Virus record (IMG/VR): IMGVR_UViG_3300013004_000031
Location: 57,815-121,814 of that record
From: a virus
Length of the DNA stretch: 64,000 nucleotides
Reading direction: 5' to 3' (one strand)
The notes beneath the pieces were generated by a model that was not told the DNA's origin, searched no databases, and saw only the letters and a program-made list of their open reading frames with translations. Positions 3,453-43,273 of the stretch are shown here, piece by piece (position 1 is the first letter of the stretch; every line of letters starts with the position of its first letter). The translations under genes and the position numbers were made by a program.

Positions 3453-4340
3453 ATGAAGAAAAAAAGCACGAACCTTTTCTCGGAAGACATCCAAAAAAGT
3501 CTGGGACTCAGCGATGAATCCATCAAGGCAATTCAGGAATCCCTTGAATCCAAGATTGATCTGGCCGTTGAAGCTGCCCTTTTGGAACAGGATGAAGTAT
3601 ATGCCTCCAAACTCAAGACCCTGATGACATCCGTTGATAAGGATCGCACGGTCAAGATGAAAAAGATCATGGAAGCTTTTGATAGAGATAAGACCGCAAA
3701 GCTGGTCAAGGTTATCAAAAAGTATGAGCGCGAACAGAACGGCGATCTTCTCAAGTTCAAAAAACAACTTACGGAATCCGTTAGTGCTTTCCTTGACGAG
3801 TTCATTGATGAATCCATTCCAACCAAAGATATCAAGGAAGCTGTCAAGAACAAGACAGCCATGAATGTTCTGGAAAATCTCAAAAAGGTCTTTGCAATCG
3901 ATCTTGCTGTCATGAAGGAATCCGTATCTGGGGCAATCGTGGAAGGTAAGAGTGAAATCGACAAGCTCCGCAATAAGAATGCTGAACTTGAAAAGAACGT
4001 TCGCTTCCTCACCGAATCCAAGAACAAGTCGGAAGTCAAACTTTTCCTTGAAGGCAGAACTTCCAAGTATCCTGAAACCAAAAAGAATTTTGTGAAGAAG
4101 GCTTTGGGAGACAAGTCCCTGCAATTCATTCAGGATAACTTTGATTACACCGTTCGCCTCTTTGAAAAACAAGAGAAAAAGCAACTGGAAACCATCAAGG
4201 AAGAAGCTGTTCAAAACCGCAAGCACAAGCCCGATTTCGTAAAAGAACAAAAAATTGTTACTGAAAAGGTAAATAATAATACGGATGAAGAATCTGATCC
4301 TTATCTGGATGTTTTGAAACAACAAACATTCCGTAGGTAA
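3453..4340 (+). CDS. 22: Prohead core scaffold protein gp22
   Basis: A 295-residue, highly charged, predominantly helical protein with long coiled-coil stretches. The N-terminus (LGLSDESIKAIQESLESKIDLAVEAALLEQDEVYASKL) is the hallmark of T4-family gp22, the internal scaffold that is degraded by gp21. The frame is open further upstream, but the ATG at 3453 follows a class A box and aligns with the family start. Sits between the core-associated gene and gp23. Confidence 0.85.
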   Translation: MKKKSTNLFSEDIQKSLGLSDESIKAIQESLESKIDLAVEAALLEQDEVYASKLKTLMTSVDKDRTVKMKKIMEAFDRDKTAKLVKVIKKYEREQNGDLLKFKKQLTESVSAFLDEFIDESIPTKDIKEAVKNKTAMNVLENLKKVFAIDLAVMKESVSGAIVEGKSEIDKLRNKNAELEKNVRFLTESKNKSEVKLFLEGRTSKYPETKKNFVKKALGDKSLQFIQDNFDYTVRLFEKQEKKQLETIKEEAVQNRKHKPDFVKEQKIVTEKVNNNTDEESDPYLDVLKQQTFRR

Positions 4341-4403
4341 AAAATTTCCAACCCGCACTATGAGGAAGCAATTCCTGAACAATGTGAATAGAAAGTCAAA
4401 TAT

Positions 4404-5870
4404 ATGAATAATCTACCATCTACTGATATCCAAGGCTCCAAGATGCAACAAGCAGTTGCCAAGTGGCGTAAGGTTCTCGATTATAGCTCGGACTCGATCC
4501 CAGCTATTCGGAACGAACACGTTTACAAGACCACTGCAATGCTCCTTGAGAACCAAGAACAGTGGTGCTACCAAGAATCGAATACTGCTGCCTCCGGTGG
4601 TGTGTTCGGTGCAACGACTTCCATTGGCAACGGTATCGCTAACAGCGACTCCTATGCTACTGGTGATGCTCGTCTGCCAAAGATTCTGATTCCTATGATT
4701 CGACGCACTTTCCCTGAATTGATTTCCAATGAGATCGTAGGCGTTCAGCCTATGGGTGGTCCTGTTGGTCTTGCTTTCGCTCTTCGTTACGCCTATCAAG
4801 GTGATACTCTGAGCGATAGTAGCATCGACGGCAAGACCTCTGGAGGTGGAACTGGTTCTAGCTTCGGTAATCAGCTTAAAGCTGCTTACGATGGTAGTAC
4901 TGGTCTTCCAGACACCGAACTTGGTTATCAACTTCTGGACACACGTTTCACTGGCACATCTGCTGGATTCCTTTCGGGTAACACCGAACACTGGACATTC
5001 GCAGATCAAGACCGTGGTATTGCTGAACTTTTGAGCAACTACGAATTGACGGGTAAAATCCCTCAAATCGAACTCAAGTTTGAAAAGACCGCTGTTGAGG
5101 CCGGAACACGTAGATTAGCTACCCGCTGGTCGGTTGAGTTGGAACAAGACATCAAAAACATGAACGGTATCGATATCGATGGAGAACTTACGAATGCAAT
5201 GTCGTATGAAATCCAAGCCGAAATCGACCGCGAAGTTGTGATGCGTATGATCCAAACTGCCTTCAATGCTGGTGCTGGCGCAGGTTTCTCCATCTGGAGT
5301 CCTGTTAGTGCGGATGGACGTTGGACTGCTGAACGGAATCTTACCTTCTATCAACGCCTTATTATCGAAAGTGGTCGTATGGCTGCTCGTAACCGTAGAG
5401 GTGCCGCTAACTTTGTTATCGCCACTCCTCGTGTTTGCAGCATCCTCGAAATGCTTCCTGACTTTAAGGTTTACGAAATCAATGGCACAGTCTCGACTGC
5501 TGGTGTTGGTATCGCAAAAGTTGGTACTGTTGGTAGCCGCTGGACGGTTTATCGTGATACTCGGACTGAAGTTCAGAATTCCTCGCTCTATAGCCCTAAC
5601 TACTACTCTGGTCAAACCAGTGGTGTGGAATATGCGCTGTTGGGTTACAAGGGTTCTGAATACTATGATACTGGTCTGATATACTGTCCGTATATCCCGA
5701 TCATGGTGCAAAGAACGATTGGACCAAATGATTTCGCTCCTCGTGTGGGTCTTATGACTCGTTACGGGATTGTGAACAACATTTTTGGTGCATCGCTCTA
5801 TTACCACCTTATCATCGTAAAGGGTCTTGGTACTGCGTTTACACCGGGGTCGGTTTCAACCTACCTCTAA
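4404..5870 (+). CDS. 23: Major capsid protein gp23
   Basis: A 488-residue capsid protein. The N-terminal region KWRKVLDYSSDSIPAIRNEH...TTAMLLENQEQW is the conserved gp23 propeptide region, and cleavage by gp21 is expected shortly after it, near the Ser/Thr/Gly-rich stretch beginning NTAASGG. Further conserved blocks include RRTFPELISNEIVGVQPMGG and the C-terminal FGASLYYHLIIVKGL. The gene is followed by a terminator (5908-5947). The upstream AT-rich TCAAATAT differs from the usual class A box, so this highly expressed gene may have a modified promoter or be read from gp22. Confidence 0.93.
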   Translation: MNNLPSTDIQGSKMQQAVAKWRKVLDYSSDSIPAIRNEHVYKTTAMLLENQEQWCYQESNTAASGGVFGATTSIGNGIANSDSYATGDARLPKILIPMIRRTFPELISNEIVGVQPMGGPVGLAFALRYAYQGDTLSDSSIDGKTSGGGTGSSFGNQLKAAYDGSTGLPDTELGYQLLDTRFTGTSAGFLSGNTEHWTFADQDRGIAELLSNYELTGKIPQIELKFEKTAVEAGTRRLATRWSVELEQDIKNMNGIDIDGELTNAMSYEIQAEIDREVVMRMIQTAFNAGAGAGFSIWSPVSADGRWTAERNLTFYQRLIIESGRMAARNRRGAANFVIATPRVCSILEMLPDFKVYEINGTVSTAGVGIAKVGTVGSRWTVYRDTRTEVQNSSLYSPNYYSGQTSGVEYALLGYKGSEYYDTGLIYCPYIPIMVQRTIGPNDFAPRVGLMTRYGIVNNIFGASLYYHLIIVKGLGTAFTPGSVSTYL

Positions 5871-6697: not shown

Positions 6698-8152
6698 TTA
6701 TTGCAATGATTTCCTCCACACAAATTTATAATTACCACAATCATATATCTTATAAAAACCATTCATCTTCATATTATCCCCTTCACTCAACGACTCATCA
6801 AAGATTGGTAACTTATCTTCGAGCTTATGTTTCTGGAACTGATGGCGAGAATATCTAATACCTTCTCGCTTATTAAAATAATAATAATTCACCGCATCAT
6901 TTTGAATCTCTTTCATACCAACACTACGGTATATATTACCAATTGAATATCGCTTATCTGCGTAAGATACTATGGAATTTGGATTATAAGTTCTGATGAA
7001 GTGTTTGAACAACTTCTGAAATCCACCGACTATCGAAGTGTTCAATACGTTGGCGAAACGAATAAGCTCCCATTCCACATTCTTATCGAATCTACTTTTA
7101 CCAAATGTTAATATGGATACCAATTGGTTATTGTAATAGAGTCCTAGCGAAATTGAACAATTGGAATATCCTTGTAGATGGTTGTCGTTTAGAAAATGTC
7201 TTGTATTGAAATTGTCAACCATTCTTATTTCACATTTTCTAGCATGGATTTTATTGGGAACTTTCCCGAAATTATATCTAATAATGGATTTCCAAATCTC
7301 CTGTTTGTTCCGCCATTCATCCTCAAATATGTGAAACAGACGAATACCAGATTCCAGACACTTATTTGTCTTGTATAAATGATAATGTTTGTCCTTACCT
7401 TCTTCTTCTGAATGACAAAATAACCCGTTCATCTCAATTGCAATATTGTGTTTTGGGGATAGGACATCCAATTCTTTTTTATCTAAAATTTGTTTATCGT
7501 TTCTAATAATGTCGGTATCCAATTCAGACTCCACAAATTCTCTAAGTTCTTCTTCAATCTTAGATAGATTCTCAGCACATACTGGACATCTTGTTTTAGA
7601 GTGAAGAAGATTATCCGGTCTAACCAACCATTCTCCATGCAATTCACACACAGCTTTAATATGTGTTTTATTGTTTGTGTATTCCTGATTGGGAATTTGA
7701 TATGATGTTAATTCCCTGATCCTTTCAATCGTCAATCTTTTCTTTCCCGAACATTCGGAACAACCATATTGTCTTGCCAACAAGTGCTTGGGAGTGATTT
7801 GAAATTCTCCGTGTTTGGGACATGCGATAATTCCTTTGGTGGTGTTGTTCTTATATATGAATTTAGAAAAATCATATTCCTGAAATTTCGAATATTTTTC
7901 TTTCAATTCTTCCATGAATTGTTCTTGGGTTCTTCGTTTGAATCCCCCTCTTGGGACACCCGCGCAATCAGGACAACCAGAACCTTGTAAATGATGTTGC
8001 TTGGAAGTTAGAAATTGACCATGATCTTTACAAATCACAATCCCTTTATCATTCTTTTTACCGGGATAAATAAACATCGAATAATCATATCTATCCCCAT
8101 GCTTCTCCTTGAAAAGTTTGATCACTTCATCTGTTGAGTATTTTTTAGCCAT
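6698..8152 (-). CDS. Vsr-like homing endonuclease with DUF723-type zinc repeats (second copy)
   Basis: About 484 residues, starting MAKKYSTDEVIKLFKEKHGDRYDYS. Three N-terminal CxxC repeat units of the same type as in the gene at 423-2183 precede a Vsr/EDxHD-like nuclease (KELDVLSPKHNIAIEMNGLFCHSEE, LYKTNKCLESGIRLFHIFEDEW). A roughly 200-residue C-terminal region resembles the corresponding part of other phage endonucleases. ATG 8152 is preferred over an upstream open stretch because a TTAAGTAATAG box precedes it. It directly follows the GIY-YIG gene on the same strand, making a double mobile insertion behind gp23. Confidence 0.75.
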   Translation of the reverse strand: MAKKYSTDEVIKLFKEKHGDRYDYSMFIYPGKKNDKGIVICKDHGQFLTSKQHHLQGSGCPDCAGVPRGGFKRRTQEQFMEELKEKYSKFQEYDFSKFIYKNNTTKGIIACPKHGEFQITPKHLLARQYGCSECSGKKRLTIERIRELTSYQIPNQEYTNNKTHIKAVCELHGEWLVRPDNLLHSKTRCPVCAENLSKIEEELREFVESELDTDIIRNDKQILDKKELDVLSPKHNIAIEMNGLFCHSEEEGKDKHYHLYKTNKCLESGIRLFHIFEDEWRNKQEIWKSIIRYNFGKVPNKIHARKCEIRMVDNFNTRHFLNDNHLQGYSNCSISLGLYYNNQLVSILTFGKSRFDKNVEWELIRFANVLNTSIVGGFQKLFKHFIRTYNPNSIVSYADKRYSIGNIYRSVGMKEIQNDAVNYYYFNKREGIRYSRHQFQKHKLEDKLPIFDESLSEGDNMKMNGFYKIYDCGNYKFVWRKSLQ

Positions 8153-8202
8153 ACTATTACTTAACAGACTATCAGACCAAAAACAGATTTCAATAAAAAT
8201 AT

Positions 8203-8230
8203 TTGACAAATTTAAAAATTGTGTTAAATT
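8203..8230 (+). promoter_or_regulatory. Sigma70-type promoter with start codon 5 nt after -10
   Basis: TTGACA (8203-8208), 16-nt spacer, TAAATT (8225-8230), then AATAC and ATG at 8236. The initiation site expected 6-7 nt after the -10 falls on the start codon, predicting a leaderless transcript. Confidence 0.65.
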
Positions 8231-8235
8231 AATAC

Positions 8236-8670
8236 ATGACAGTATCAGAAACCGCAATCCAAAAAGCTTACGAGTTGGCAGAAATAGACGCTTTTTACGT
8301 TGAACGACCATATTCAAAAGAAACAGTTGAAAACCGTTTGAACTTGTTGGATTGGTTTAGGGGATGGTTTGATAAAAACGAAGAGGGTGATATTTATTGG
8401 GATAGCGGACGAAATTGGCTGTGCGAAGAAATCGAGGCATATTATAATGATAAAATTTTTGATTTAAAATATTCAAATGTGGCGAAGACACCGTTGGTAG
8501 TTAAATGGATTAAAATTCTATCATTACCAAGATTCAATCTTCCACAATCCGCATATCATGAGGTTGCAGAAGATTTGGAAAAAATCGAGCTTGATAATAT
8601 TGAAGCTGGAAAGGATACCGTGTCTTCCAAACTCATAGAATACTTTGAAAATAATTACCCAAATTACTAA
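8236..8670 (+). CDS. Hypothetical protein
   Basis: 144 residues, acidic, rich in Trp/Tyr (LLDWFRGWFDKNEEGDIYW, WLCEEIEAYYN). I do not recognise a family. It has its own TTGACA promoter, unlike the surrounding late genes, and is divergent from the homing endonuclease at 8152, so it may have been an early gene brought in with or displaced by the mobile block. Confidence 0.65.
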   Translation: MTVSETAIQKAYELAEIDAFYVERPYSKETVENRLNLLDWFRGWFDKNEEGDIYWDSGRNWLCEEIEAYYNDKIFDLKYSNVAKTPLVVKWIKILSLPRFNLPQSAYHEVAEDLEKIELDNIEAGKDTVSSKLIEYFENNYPNY

Positions 8671-17348: not shown

Positions 17349-19172
17349 ATGGCGGGTATCGGCAGTTCAACAACACCATCTTCAAACAAACAATACCAAG
17401 GAACGGATGGTAAAGGTTCCACATTTGATAGGAACATGCAATCCTATTTGAAGAATCGCGGGAATTTCATTGAGAAGACTCCTGACGAAGCGAAGAATAC
17501 AAAATATAAATATTTCCAAAAGATTGGTTTACGCAGACCGGAAGCGATTGCTAGAAATTCCGTAGCTCTCAATAACGACTGGAACAACACTGCATTTTCC
17601 GCAATTTACCAAGACAAGTCCTTTACGGATTTGATGTATTCCCAAGCTTCGGAGGAAAAACCGGGGCGTTTGCGGGACTACCGCATGATTGCCGCTTACT
17701 CTGAAGTGGCGGATGCCATGGATGAGATTTGCGATGAGACGATCAATGTGGATGAGAACGGAGAGATTGTAACTCTAGAAATCCGTAATACTGATCTGGA
17801 ATCGGAAAAGAAAGAGGAGATTGAGAAGGAATTCTCCCGTTTCGTTGCCATGATGGAACTGGAAGACAATGGTTGGAATTATTTCCGCCAATTTCTTATT
17901 GAAGGCGAACTGTTCTTTGAATTGATTCTAAAAGATGATTATATCAAACAAGGGGTAGTTGCCATCAAAAACCTCCCTGCTGAACAATTTGATCCTGTAT
18001 ATGACAACATTCAGACGATGTTGGTGAAAGCGTTCATTTACAAGAAGCCAATCTTCTCTTCGGTGGATAATAAAAAGGTAGAACGCTATGAATACATTCC
18101 CTTTGAACAAAACCAAGTCCTCTATGTGAACAGTGGGCAATATAATGAAACCAAGGATTTTATCATTCCTTTCATTGAGAATTGCCGTAGAGCTTACAGA
18201 CAGCTTTCCATGATTGAGGATTCCGTGGTGATCCACAGAATGGTTCATGCGCCCCTCCGCTTCCTCTTCAACGTGGATGTGGGAAGATTGCCCGTCCCCG
18301 CAGCAGAAGCCTACCTACGCAAGCTACAGAGCCAATACTGGTCAACCAAGACGTTTGACATGGATCAGGGAGATATTGTCAAGAAATACGCACCTCAATC
18401 CACGCTTGATTCATTCTGGTTTGCCAAGAGACAAGGACAAGAGGCAACTACAGTTGAAACATTTGGGGGTCAAATGTCGGATGGTAATATGGAACCTCTT
18501 GATTGGTTCATCAAGAAATTATATCGTTCTCTCAAGACTCCAACTTCTCGTTTGAATAATGAAACGGGTTATAATGATGGAACGGAGATGCTTCGGGAAG
18601 AACTGAAGTTTGCCAAGATGATCATTCGTCAACAACAACGCTTTGCCCAAGGTATCAAGAGAGCGTTTATCACACACCTCAAGTTCAAGGACATGTTCGA
18701 TGATTGGGATTTGTTCGATGACAATATCCGCGTGGAATTCAATGTTCCCACCAATTTCTATGATATGCGGGAGAGCCAGAAGCTCAATCTTAAGATTGAG
18801 ACTTTCAATAACATTACGGGTAATGAAATGGTATCCACGATTTATGCCATGAAGAAATATCTGGATTGGAGAGATTCCGATATCCTTGCCAACCTACATT
18901 TCAAGAAGGTGGAAGCGGAACACATGTTTGAAATCGAACAAATAAAAACACTCGGACCCAACTACAAAGAGTTATTAGCTCAACAAGCTGGAGGCGAAGC
19001 TGGTGGTGATATGGGAGCCATGGGAGGATCAAGTGGAGGTGGTGGGATGCCTCCAGATTTTGGAGGCTCTGGCGCAGCTATAACTGATTCAGAAGCTCCA
19101 AATGTCGAAGCTCCACTCGATCAAGCAGAAACGCCGGAAGCTCCGTCCAATGAACCAGAGATGGGTGTCTAA
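17349..19172 (+). CDS. 20: Portal vertex protein gp20
   Basis: 607 residues. Conserved portal blocks include RDYRMIAAYSEVADAMDEICDE, the LNNDWNNTAF region, RMVHAPLRFLFNVDVGRLP and TLPSS-type TPTSRLNNETGYNDGTEMLREELKF. These are hallmarks of T4-family gp20, the dodecameric DNA entry portal and packaging-motor dock. The last 60 residues are a Gly/Pro/Ala-rich tail. Class A box TTAAATAATAAG. The 3' 95 nt overlap the antisense HNH gene. Confidence 0.9.
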   Translation: MAGIGSSTTPSSNKQYQGTDGKGSTFDRNMQSYLKNRGNFIEKTPDEAKNTKYKYFQKIGLRRPEAIARNSVALNNDWNNTAFSAIYQDKSFTDLMYSQASEEKPGRLRDYRMIAAYSEVADAMDEICDETINVDENGEIVTLEIRNTDLESEKKEEIEKEFSRFVAMMELEDNGWNYFRQFLIEGELFFELILKDDYIKQGVVAIKNLPAEQFDPVYDNIQTMLVKAFIYKKPIFSSVDNKKVERYEYIPFEQNQVLYVNSGQYNETKDFIIPFIENCRRAYRQLSMIEDSVVIHRMVHAPLRFLFNVDVGRLPVPAAEAYLRKLQSQYWSTKTFDMDQGDIVKKYAPQSTLDSFWFAKRQGQEATTVETFGGQMSDGNMEPLDWFIKKLYRSLKTPTSRLNNETGYNDGTEMLREELKFAKMIIRQQQRFAQGIKRAFITHLKFKDMFDDWDLFDDNIRVEFNVPTNFYDMRESQKLNLKIETFNNITGNEMVSTIYAMKKYLDWRDSDILANLHFKKVEAEHMFEIEQIKTLGPNYKELLAQQAGGEAGGDMGAMGGSSGGGGMPPDFGGSGAAITDSEAPNVEAPLDQAETPEAPSNEPEMGV

Positions 19173-20211
19173 ATTTTAAATTAGCTCTCTTACTGTCGTT
19201 AAGAGACTCTGGTATTGTTTGGAGATTTCCATGGTGATGATAACCTCCTTTGGTTAGAGGTAAGATATGATCAACATTATATTTGATACCTAGACAATCT
19301 TCCAGCCTGATTCGCATATCAACATATGTTTTTTCAATGTTTTGATCGTGATTAGGATGTGTTGCGTTCTTTTTTAACGCTCGTCTTTTACTATTTCTCA
19401 ATAATACCTTATCCCAATTATTTTTATCCCAATTATTCTTTTTAATATTTAATTGTTCTTTATTATTTTTATAATATTCAGAAAATTTTTTGTTGTGGCA
19501 AGCTTCACAATAAGACGATCTATTTTTAAATTTTTTATGTAATATACAAAAGCTATCAATTGGGGAAATTTGATCGCATGAGTAACATTTTTTATTACCA
19601 CTCATTTCTAATTTTACATTTTCTATTTGTAATGCCTTGTCCCATAAAAATTCTGGAGTGTCCCCCCAATATTTTAATATGGGATTATCGTGCTTAATTA
19701 ATTTATTGGCTATTCCCTCGAATGATTTTGGTATAACTTGAATATTTTGGTGATGATGATAACCTCCTTTATTCATTGGGATTATTTTATGTAATATAAA
19801 TTTAACACCTAAACATTTTTGCAATCTAATTTTCATTTCTATTAAAACAGCTTCTATCTTCGGATCATGTTGTTCGTGATAAGCATCGTTTTTAATTGCA
19901 TTCGTCTTATAAGAACCCAATTGTCTAATCACCGGATTCTTCAATTTATAATTTTTAGAACGGAGTAATTCCTTTTCCAAATTCTTTTCTCTATATATTT
20001 TACCTCTCTCTATACAAAGCTCACGGTTTTCTTCTCTGTATTTTACCATATAAGCATCATGACGATCTTTATTTTTCAATCTCCATTCACGTTTTCGTTC
20101 TTTCCCACATTCAATACATTCATATTGCAAACCATCAGGACTTTTGGAAGATTTTGTAAATAAATTTAATGATAACTCACTTTTACATCTAGTGCATTCC
20201 TTCGTATTCAT
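19078..20211 (-). CDS. HNH homing endonuclease with internal duplication
   Basis: 377 residues built as two tandem modules, each a four-Cys zinc ribbon (CTRC...CIEC; CYSC...CEAC), a charged helical linker and an HNH-like segment. In the second copy the motif is intact (NVDHILPLTKGGYHHHGNLQTIP); in the first it reads FILHKIIPMNKGGYHHHQN, with the Asp-His pair altered. The second nuclease therefore looks active and the first degenerate. It is inserted antisense over the end of the portal gene, with a TTAAATATTAAT box before its ATG. Confidence 0.75.
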   Translation of the reverse strand: MNTKECTRCKSELSLNLFTKSSKSPDGLQYECIECGKERKREWRLKNKDRHDAYMVKYREENRELCIERGKIYREKNLEKELLRSKNYKLKNPVIRQLGSYKTNAIKNDAYHEQHDPKIEAVLIEMKIRLQKCLGVKFILHKIIPMNKGGYHHHQNIQVIPKSFEGIANKLIKHDNPILKYWGDTPEFLWDKALQIENVKLEMSGNKKCYSCDQISPIDSFCILHKKFKNRSSYCEACHNKKFSEYYKNNKEQLNIKKNNWDKNNWDKVLLRNSKRRALKKNATHPNHDQNIEKTYVDMRIRLEDCLGIKYNVDHILPLTKGGYHHHGNLQTIPESLNDSKRANLKFRHPSLVHWTELPAFLLDRVELRHLELLNQL

Positions 20212-41586: not shown

Positions 41587-42443
41587 ATGAACAAGGATGA
41601 TTTATCCCTACAACAAATCTACCAAGAAATGGCTCTTTCCAATCTACAAAAGATTGGCAAATGGGATGATAAGAAAAATCGCCATGGTTATGACAAAGCA
41701 TCCATTGGGATTTTGTCGTCTCCTGCTGGTTTGAAAAAGCTGGAACAAAAATTTAATAATATTGGTAATTGGGATTTTAATTTATATTTCGTCAAGAATC
41801 CCAATGCTTGGAAATATGCCGAACAGGGAAAAGTAACCGCTGGTCAACTTCAAGCTAGATTGGGATTGGAAGTTGGAAAAGATTTCCCCAACCGAAAGGC
41901 GATCAGATCACGGTCTTCTTCACAAACAATGCCGCTGCTGAGAAAGTTCCCCTGACCCCATGGACAATCGCTCACAGAATTGGTCATGCTTTTGCAAAAA
42001 CCTTTCGCAATGGTATTGGTTCGAGTAGGGTGGAATGGAATAATGATCAAATTTCAAGAATCCTAAGTAAAATATTGGGATGTTATGGAATCCAAAAAGG
42101 GTGGTCTGGATTGAGATATTCCGAAGAATATTATATTCGGGACTTGTATCAAAAGATTGGAAAATTCCGCAGTGCGAGAATGAGTAAGTTAATAAGACCC
42201 AATGAATTCTACCACGAAGCATTTGCCTATTGGTTACTACATGATGGGGAACTTGATTTTAACGATCCTCCCCAATATCTGACATCATCCAATAAAAAAG
42301 CATGGGGTAATCCAACGGGAAGAAATTACATGTTAAAGGATGAGGACGGTGCCACAGAACTTGTTCACCAATTGAGATATGCTCTGGAGGAAATGTTTCA
42401 TACCATGGTAGGGGAACATATGGGAGAAATATCCATCATGTGA
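41587..42443 (+). CDS. Late protein apparently expressed by -1 frameshift
   Basis: Frame 1 runs 41587-41955 (122 codons) and a second frame continues to 42443. Sequence character switches at T-TTC-CCC (41883-41889): after it frame 1 becomes Arg/Ser-rich, whereas the -1 frame reads FPQPKGDQITVFFTNN...VPLTPWTIAHRIGHAF with no stop. A single slip gives a coherent product of about 285 residues. TTTCCCC is a canonical X-XXY-YYZ slippery heptamer, but one lost C in the C run would have the same effect. N-terminus LSLQQIYQEM shares the LxxLY motif; box CTAAATAAGAG. AHRIGHA could be part of a metal site. Confidence 0.6.
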
Positions 42444-42499: not shown

Positions 42500-42527
42500 T
42501 TGACAAAACCAAATATTCTGTTAAGAT
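42500..42527 (+). promoter_or_regulatory. Sigma70-type promoter with start codon 6 nt after -10
   Basis: TTGACA (42500-42505), 16-nt spacer, TAAGAT (42522-42527), AAAGCC, ATG 42534. The -10 plus following hexamer (TAAGAT-AAAGCC-ATG) is nearly identical to many class B promoters of the 44-64 kb array, linking the two designs. Confidence 0.78.
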
Positions 42528-42533
42528 AAAGCC

Positions 42534-43055
42534 ATGATAAACAAAATCTTCATCGATCTGGACGAGTGTATGCTACATTCGATGCTTCGTAAACCCAACC
42601 AAGAACATATCCAATTCACTCTGGAGAATGATGACAACACCTATTACACCGTCATCCGTCCCTGCGCCCAAGGATTGATTGATTTTGCACGGGAACTTGT
42701 GGGAAAGGATAACGTGTATATCCTAACCACATCCACCACCGATTACGCCAATATGATCAATGAAAAGGCGGGATGGGGATTTGAGAGGGATCATATCATT
42801 GCCAGAGAGGAGATTAAAAGACACCTGATACCCACGGCTTATGGCGGAAGCGCATACATCGAGAAAGAAGGGATTGCTCACAAGGACAACGTTCTCATCG
42901 ACAATCTCCCTTATCGGGAAAACATGGGTAAAGTCACCCTGATTGGAATTAAGGAAGATCGCTATCTGAAGGTGAAAGATTACTGGGGAGTAAACGGGAT
43001 TGAAAATTGGTTTGAGGAGGATGTGAGGGAATTCCTGAAGGAAAAAATGGTATGA
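42534..43055 (+). CDS. HAD-superfamily phosphatase
   Basis: 173 residues. Motif I IFIDLDECML (Asp8, Asp10), motif II VYILTTSTTD, Lys in motif III region (EIKRHL), motif IV-like NVLIDNLPYRENMG. The pattern fits phage HAD 5'-nucleotidases/polynucleotide phosphatases. The substrate cannot be told from the sequence. Stop overlaps the next ATG. Confidence 0.7.
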   Translation: MINKIFIDLDECMLHSMLRKPNQEHIQFTLENDDNTYYTVIRPCAQGLIDFARELVGKDNVYILTTSTTDYANMINEKAGWGFERDHIIAREEIKRHLIPTAYGGSAYIEKEGIAHKDNVLIDNLPYRENMGKVTLIGIKEDRYLKVKDYWGVNGIENWFEEDVREFLKEKMV

Positions 43056-43273
43056 CAAACGAAGAATTAATTAAGAAATGGGAAGCGGTTCTGGATTATA
43101 CGGATGGGGAGACTCCTGCTTTGAACGAATTTCAAAGGTTATACAGAGCAACATTGATGGAAAATTGTGAGTTGGATTATTTTAAATACGGGAATTATCC
43201 TGACCAAGCCCTGTTCGAAATGATTGGCGAAATACGGAGAACAGGTAAGCTACTCAACTCTCCATACGAATAA
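43052..43273 (+). CDS. Small protein resembling the gp23 N-terminal region
   Basis: 73 residues. IKKWEAVLDYTDGETPALNEFQRLYRATLM-EN-CE lines up with residues about 20-52 of the gp23 encoded at 4404-5870 (AKWRKVLDYSSDSIPAIRNEHVYKTTAMLLENQE), with some 15 identities in 35 positions. It lacks everything downstream of the propeptide region. It could be a gene-duplication relic, a binding mimic that regulates capsid assembly, or a coincidental small-domain family. Coupled to the HAD gene by ATGA. Confidence 0.55.
   Translation: MTNEELIKKWEAVLDYTDGETPALNEFQRLYRATLMENCELDYFKYGNYPDQALFEMIGEIRRTGKLLNSPYE

Follow-up and report, generated by a model that had tools for sequence, protein, structure and literature searches.

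A stand-alone small protein related to the gp23 capsid propeptide in a T4-like phage

Organization of the locus

The window, i.e. the whole stretch of 64,000 nucleotides that was analysed, covers bases 57815-121814 of the 121.8-kb virus record of a T4-like phage. Two parts of it are considered here, the gene of the major capsid protein gp23 and a pair of overlapping genes that code for a HAD phosphatase and a protein of 73 amino acids (Table 1). The open reading frame (ORF) of the small protein starts with an ATG; its product (MTNEELIKKWEAVLDYTDGETPALNEFQRLYRATLMENCELDYFKYGNYPDQALFEMIGEIRRTGKLLNSPYE; residue numbers count from the Met) divides into a module resembling the gp23 propeptide and a tail. 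A search for homologues next to HAD genes in related phages, as proposed in an earlier sequence-only reading of this DNA, was successful in all four relatives found (L003-L006), and the ATGA overlap of the two genes is present throughout. At one of these loci, L005, a 284-aa ORF (4330-5184) corresponds to two ORFs in the window (41587-41955 and 42030-42443) and in L003. Within and around the head-gene cluster of the window, large ORFs with repeated Cys-pair motifs, by eye resembling HNH or homing endonucleases, are located at 405-2183, 6698-8317 and 19078-20211.

Table 1. Features of the gp23 and HAD loci and positions of the family D genes (window coordinates unless a record is named)
Feature	Position	Strand	Remarks
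Major capsid protein gp23	4404..5870	+	PF07068, E 1.4e-83; phrog_138, E 1.4e-80
N-terminal propeptide region of the phage's gp23, residues 1-58	4404..4577	+	Presumed cleavage point
Putative sigma-70-like site	42500..42527	+	TTGACA-16-TAAGAT, TG before second hexamer; just 5' of HAD gene
HAD phosphatase, NIF/FCP type, 173 aa	42534..43055	+	PF03031, E 1.8e-8; stop overlaps start of small gene (ATGA)
Shine-Dalgarno sequence AAGGA	43038..43042	+	9 nt 5' of the small gene's ATG, within the end of the HAD gene
Stand-alone propeptide-like protein gene (family A)	43052..43273	+	73 aa; span includes stop codon
gp23-propeptide module, residues 4-44	43061..43183	+	Pattern KW...LDY...P...RL..A.L.EN.E; hhalign, invariant positions, AF2 helices
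Span with four [LI]xE (gp21-type) motifs	43121..43231	+	LNE 24-26, LME 35-37, LFE 54-56, IGE 58-60
Tail, residues 45-73	43184..43270	+	Absent from gp23; one predicted helix, 51-64
Family D gene, phage's own genome (outside the window)	L092:16117-16500		
Family D gene	L134:9898-10317	-	
Family D gene	L148:810-1193		
Family D gene	L165:15194-15448		
Family D gene	L158:6224-6808		

Membership of the small protein in a known small-protein family was rejected, as none of Pfam, PHROGs, NCBIfam and PADLOC gave a significant match. Pfam yielded no match at all, and the HK97-type capsid domain (PF07068, phrog_138) was not matched; PHROGs returned only phrog_38114 (E 0.027), and the best NCBIfam hit was an unrelated enzyme (E 0.099). 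Fold searches against the PDB and BFVD gave zero matches at E <= 0.001, which is uninformative for a helical protein of 73 residues. Searched singly against 50,697 phage records, the protein found just three at E <= 1, all with an individually non-significant E of 0.8. Of the three, one corresponds to the N-terminal end of a major capsid protein from Straboviridae; another, from a Staphylococcus phage (L007), is coiled-coil-like and devoid of the KW...ENxE motif and was taken as a chance match.

Homology to the gp23 propeptide

In this class of assembly, the gp23 propeptide probably binds to the gp22 scaffold. In T4, the propeptide comprises the N-terminal 65 residues of gp23, which are removed by gp21. 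The propeptide works in the prohead, and its removal by gp21 drives the maturation change (PMC9026906, PMC9958956).

In a single pairwise BLASTP comparison, residues 4-40 of the small protein aligned to residues 15-52 of the window's gp23 with 15/38 identities and one gap (E 5e-6), in agreement with the roughly 15 identities estimated in the sequence-only reading. For profile comparisons, 80 gp23 loci were gathered, their N-termini were extracted and 31 propeptides were aligned; a second alignment comprised the small protein and three relatives (four proteins). Aligned to each other by hhalign, the two profiles matched over 41 columns with a probability of 97.1 (E 7.6e-11), and the homologous spans are residues 4-44 of the small protein and 15-56 of the window's gp23. 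The HMM built from the propeptide alignment, which contains no small protein, hit only two places in the whole 121.8-kb genome, gp23 itself (2.3e-29) and the small ORF (2.6e-8); over all 2,182 reading frames of >= 30 aa, the small ORF scored 1.7e-8 and the next best frame 1.1. The HMM and hhalign comparisons by which the resemblance was to be checked thus indicate a significant relationship, and the small protein also shows similarity to the gp23-propeptide profile KW..vLdY...P......A.LLENQE. Seven positions are invariant and common to the small-protein family and gp23 (K9, W10, L14, A33, E37, N38 and E40). The similarity ends where the gp23 propeptide ends, ahead of the Gly-rich stretch on the far side of the probable cleavage site.

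A chance resemblance between two short amphipathic helical proteins might be suspected, as the match is short and the helices are rich in Leu, Glu and Lys. It is nevertheless extremely improbable: the independent profile reached its low E-value on the single such ORF of the genome, Trp and Asn positions are common to both proteins, and 60 decoy searches, in which three models were run per genome on the reversed or shuffled ORFs of five genomes, gave no E below 0.032. Chance similarity was ruled out by the independent profile and the decoys. These alignments establish the small protein as a genuine relative of the propeptide of gp23, and the homology is firm.

The predicted structures agree with this assignment. 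AlphaFold2 modelled the small protein from 35 sequences with a mean pLDDT of 88 and helices at residues 3-9, 11-14, 26-46 and 51-64. The model of full gp23 has a mean pLDDT of only 39 and served solely to locate the helices of the propeptide (pLDDT ~63-68), which are predicted at 12-20, 22-25 and 38-61. The helices of the two proteins, whose comparison had been envisaged in the sequence-only reading, match in order with an offset of ~11, within the low confidence of the gp23 model. Both would accordingly have a helix-kink-helix-loop-long helix pattern, which is supporting evidence and not fully independent, because the alignment used for the small protein included gp23 rows.

Distribution among relatives

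In IMG/VR viral contigs, the small-protein family (family A) is present at four loci, L003 to L006. The L003 protein is 100% identical to the small protein, and the two viruses are evidently identical or nearly so; L005 lies on a 207-kb contig. A propeptide-profile search detected a strong stand-alone copy in only 4/45 related records (G001-G004), and 24 further related records have the propeptide only within gp23. Most relatives lack the small gene, among them three other contigs of > 200 kb (G012, G014 and G035), and no relative was found in the bacterial genomes searched. A propeptide query against the 50,697 phage records hit 1,169 places in 1,169 records, one in each; among the matches listed, the proteins are annotated as gp23 or capsid, as hypothetical, or not at all. 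Stand-alone propeptide copies are rare, since the phage search gave one propeptide place per record and relatives have the gp23 copy alone. Searches of the open-access literature found no description of a gp23 propeptide encoded by itself. What appears to be new, as far as sequence comparison goes, is that a capsid propeptide module exists as its own gene; otherwise it was found only fused to capsid proteins.

Selection, recombination and origin

Pairwise dN/dS values are 0.16-0.29 for the whole small gene and 0.09-0.13 for the HAD gene; by this measure, the small gene is under purifying selection. The tail (residues 45-73) diverges more and has been swapped by recombination among relatives. 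L004 is a mosaic (L004:230-984 compared to window 42534-43273): its HAD gene and propeptide module are nearly exact to the window, with identical DNA over approximately residues 14-40, and its tail instead matches L005. These sequences place a recombination junction at the border of propeptide module and tail. Beside the identical stretch, residues 8-13 form a local hotspot of differences between the window and L004.

The resemblance to the phage's own gp23, from which the sequence-only reading set out, requires a distinction: the small protein is a relative of the propeptide, but probably not a recent copy of the resident one. Against the small-protein family, 73 of 140 other distinct gp23 propeptides outscore the phage's own, the best-scoring ones belonging to the L061 lineage (KKWAPLLDHSDDNTPAI). 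In a short tree, the family is placed beside the L061 group with a local support of 0.865, on ~45 columns and with a long branch. In sequence, the small protein thus seems to resemble the propeptides of a different gp23 lineage more than that of its own phage, which, on ~45 columns, is a lead and not a proof. That the resident gp23 was recently duplicated is disfavoured, since so many other propeptides outscore its own.

Processing motifs and transcription control

The protease gp21 cuts after L/I-X-E (PMC9026906), and several gp21 cuts are known within the propeptide of the T4 major capsid protein and within gp22 (PMC5694885). Each of the four family members retains all four [LI]xE motifs of the small protein, and the residue in the middle varies (LFE/LIE/LNE/LCE). 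Compared to shuffled sequences, their number is marginal (p 0.053), and one of the sites comes with the homology. The conserved motifs are suggestive of cleavage of the small protein by gp21.

The non-late control that had been assumed for the small gene is not borne out. The sigma-70-like site in front of the HAD gene belongs to a class that is not enriched in the region (8 sites found, 6.3 expected from shuffles), and a T4-late-like motif directly precedes the HAD gene in two relatives, L004 (TATAAATA) and L006 (TTTAAATA); there is none at this position in the window or in L005. Motifs like TATAAATA are enriched in the phage, being present <= 100 nt upstream of 12/39 genes compared to a background of 9.6%, and could represent a late promoter or a translation-initiation context. 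They often lie ~11-19 nt before the ATG, e.g. at ORFs 2199, 2879, 3453, 12163, 20706 (-), 26857 (-) and 33939 (-), among others.

Possible functions of the small protein

The reading that we tentatively favour, at somewhat less than even probability, is that of a gp23-propeptide paralogue acting in trans: the small protein would dock on the prohead core or scaffold, be processed there and tune assembly in the following manner. The free module would dock on the partner that the gp23 propeptide has while the prohead is built, the most plausible candidate being the gp22 scaffold or the core, and the small protein would enter the core or compete there, acting as a minor core component or as a competitor. 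Subsequently, gp21 may cut it at the conserved [LI]xE sites, so that no remnant would block maturation. As a result, the recruitment of gp23 or the extent of shell growth would be tuned, and specificity or timing might be set by the HAD partner and by the tail beyond residue 45. Such a role in assembly is supported by the homology of the module, the correspondence of helices and the end of the match at the propeptide end; by the four retained [LI]xE motifs together with the multiple cuts that gp21 makes in the T4 propeptide and gp22; and by the purifying selection on the module and the late-type motif before the operon in two relatives. Against it speaks the location of the small gene outside the head-gene cluster, ~37 kb from gp23. 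The gene is dispensable, because it is missing from most relatives.

Several known components of T4-type heads are similar in part. The small protein and the gp23 propeptide are homologous over ~41 residues, have an equal order of predicted helices and carry an LxE at the same place (LLEN/LMEN), whereas the small protein has its own gene, lacks a capsid domain and possesses its own ~29-residue tail; moreover, the invariant Gln of ENQE is replaced by Cys or Glu in its family. Like IPI, IPII, IPIII and Alt of T4, it is a small phage protein that may have gp21 sites and a place in the prohead core. The capsid targeting sequence (CTS) of T4 comprises 10-20 residues (PMC9026906, PMC5694885); as compared to the CTS-bearing internal proteins, in which a short N-terminal CTS precedes a mature cargo domain, the propeptide-like part of the small protein accounts for 41/73 residues and is followed by a ~29-residue tail. 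With the core proteins gp22, gp67 and gp68, the small protein has in common several gp21-type sites and a possible place in the core, in contrast to which its gene lies outside the gp20-gp24 head cluster and is patchy across T4-like phages; no resemblance in sequence to these core proteins was noticed.

The main rival to a role in assembly, rather unlikely in our estimate, is that the small protein serves the neighbouring HAD phosphatase as its subunit or regulator; the propeptide-like module might then be a mere docking helix pair, for example one that recruits the enzyme to the scaffold or to the core of the prohead. The gene order and the ATGA overlap are fixed in 4/4 loci, the small gene was never found without the HAD gene, and the pair stays constant while the downstream genes vary among the four loci. 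On the other hand, the more distant HAD homologues of G012 and G014 have no such neighbour, the linkage may reflect shared ancestry given the few lineages available, and the mosaic L004 points to different recent histories for the tail of the small gene and the HAD gene.

Two further possibilities place the target outside the phage's own head. Quite unlikely is an interference with co-infecting phages, in which the free propeptide, being nearest to another capsid lineage, would occupy the scaffold of a competitor and poison its prohead assembly. The scores and the tree that favour L061-like propeptides would fit, as would the patchy, mosaic distribution, which is typical of accessory genes; given the few alignable columns and the long branch, however, the likeness to the other lineage may indicate an older origin. 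We know of no phage that uses the capsid propeptide of a rival against this rival. Still more doubtful, and without specific support, is a decoy or antagonist of host defence that occupies a sensor of newly made capsid protein. Capsid-sensing defences do exist, and T4 gp23 is the trigger of one of them, CmdTAC; which part of gp23 is bound by CmdC is unmapped (PMC11618068). Unless it were an antagonist, a free copy of the trigger should itself set off the sensor, and PADLOC gave no match for the pair of HAD and small protein (best 0.04).

The gp23 propeptide is synthesized within the capsid protein and later discarded. If it is kept under selection as a separate gene, this piece would have a role in trans in its own right. 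The small protein would represent a naturally occurring peptide with the potential to block or modulate capsid assembly, and it makes a question of T4-type heads directly testable in laboratory phages, namely which partner the propeptide has and how free propeptide affects head size or yield.

Other capsid N-terminal pieces as separate proteins

Pieces of the gp23 N-terminus were also detected in three further kinds of small proteins, B, C and D. The first (L114:4577-4846, in G003) is an 89-aa ORF that lies between uvsW and gp55 and overlaps each of them; its N-terminus is propeptide-like (KW...TAMLIESQEK; genome E 2e-4 to 3.5e-4, hhalign 91%). Homologues of uvsW and gp55 are also present in the 121.8-kb record, where they adjoin directly and B is absent. 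Protein C (L115:3351-3749, in G014; 132 aa) has a KW propeptide-like start (E 1e-3 to 3e-3 with two models, 0.026 with the alignment of 31 propeptides; hhalign 75%) and then an unrelated C-terminal part; it carries a second piece, FPKCFIPQVRATL, similar to the gp23 N-arm (RLPKILIPMIRRTF in gp23), and only a single copy was found in IMG/VR. B and C have in common with family A that a KW-type N-terminal module resides on a small separate protein, but their similarity is much weaker, and their neighbours and tails are different.

T4-like phages of this clade may repeatedly have turned N-terminal modules of the capsid protein into small separate proteins that act in trans, with A, B and C representing the propeptide and D the Gly-rich segment next to it. 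Such proteins would steer the phage's own head assembly or sabotage that of a competitor; we consider this generalization unlikely. Family D, a small protein with a Lys-rich end that occurs in 5/5 genomes examined, matches the stretch of gp23 right after the propeptide (motif GGxFG...NxDxYAxGDxRxPK; E 4e-7 to 0.013, the copy of the window's own genome being the weakest), which suggests, at the level of sequence, that N-terminal pieces of gp23 recur as separate proteins. In four of the five genomes (G000, G003, G014 and G035), the family D gene is located close beside uvsW on the opposite strand.
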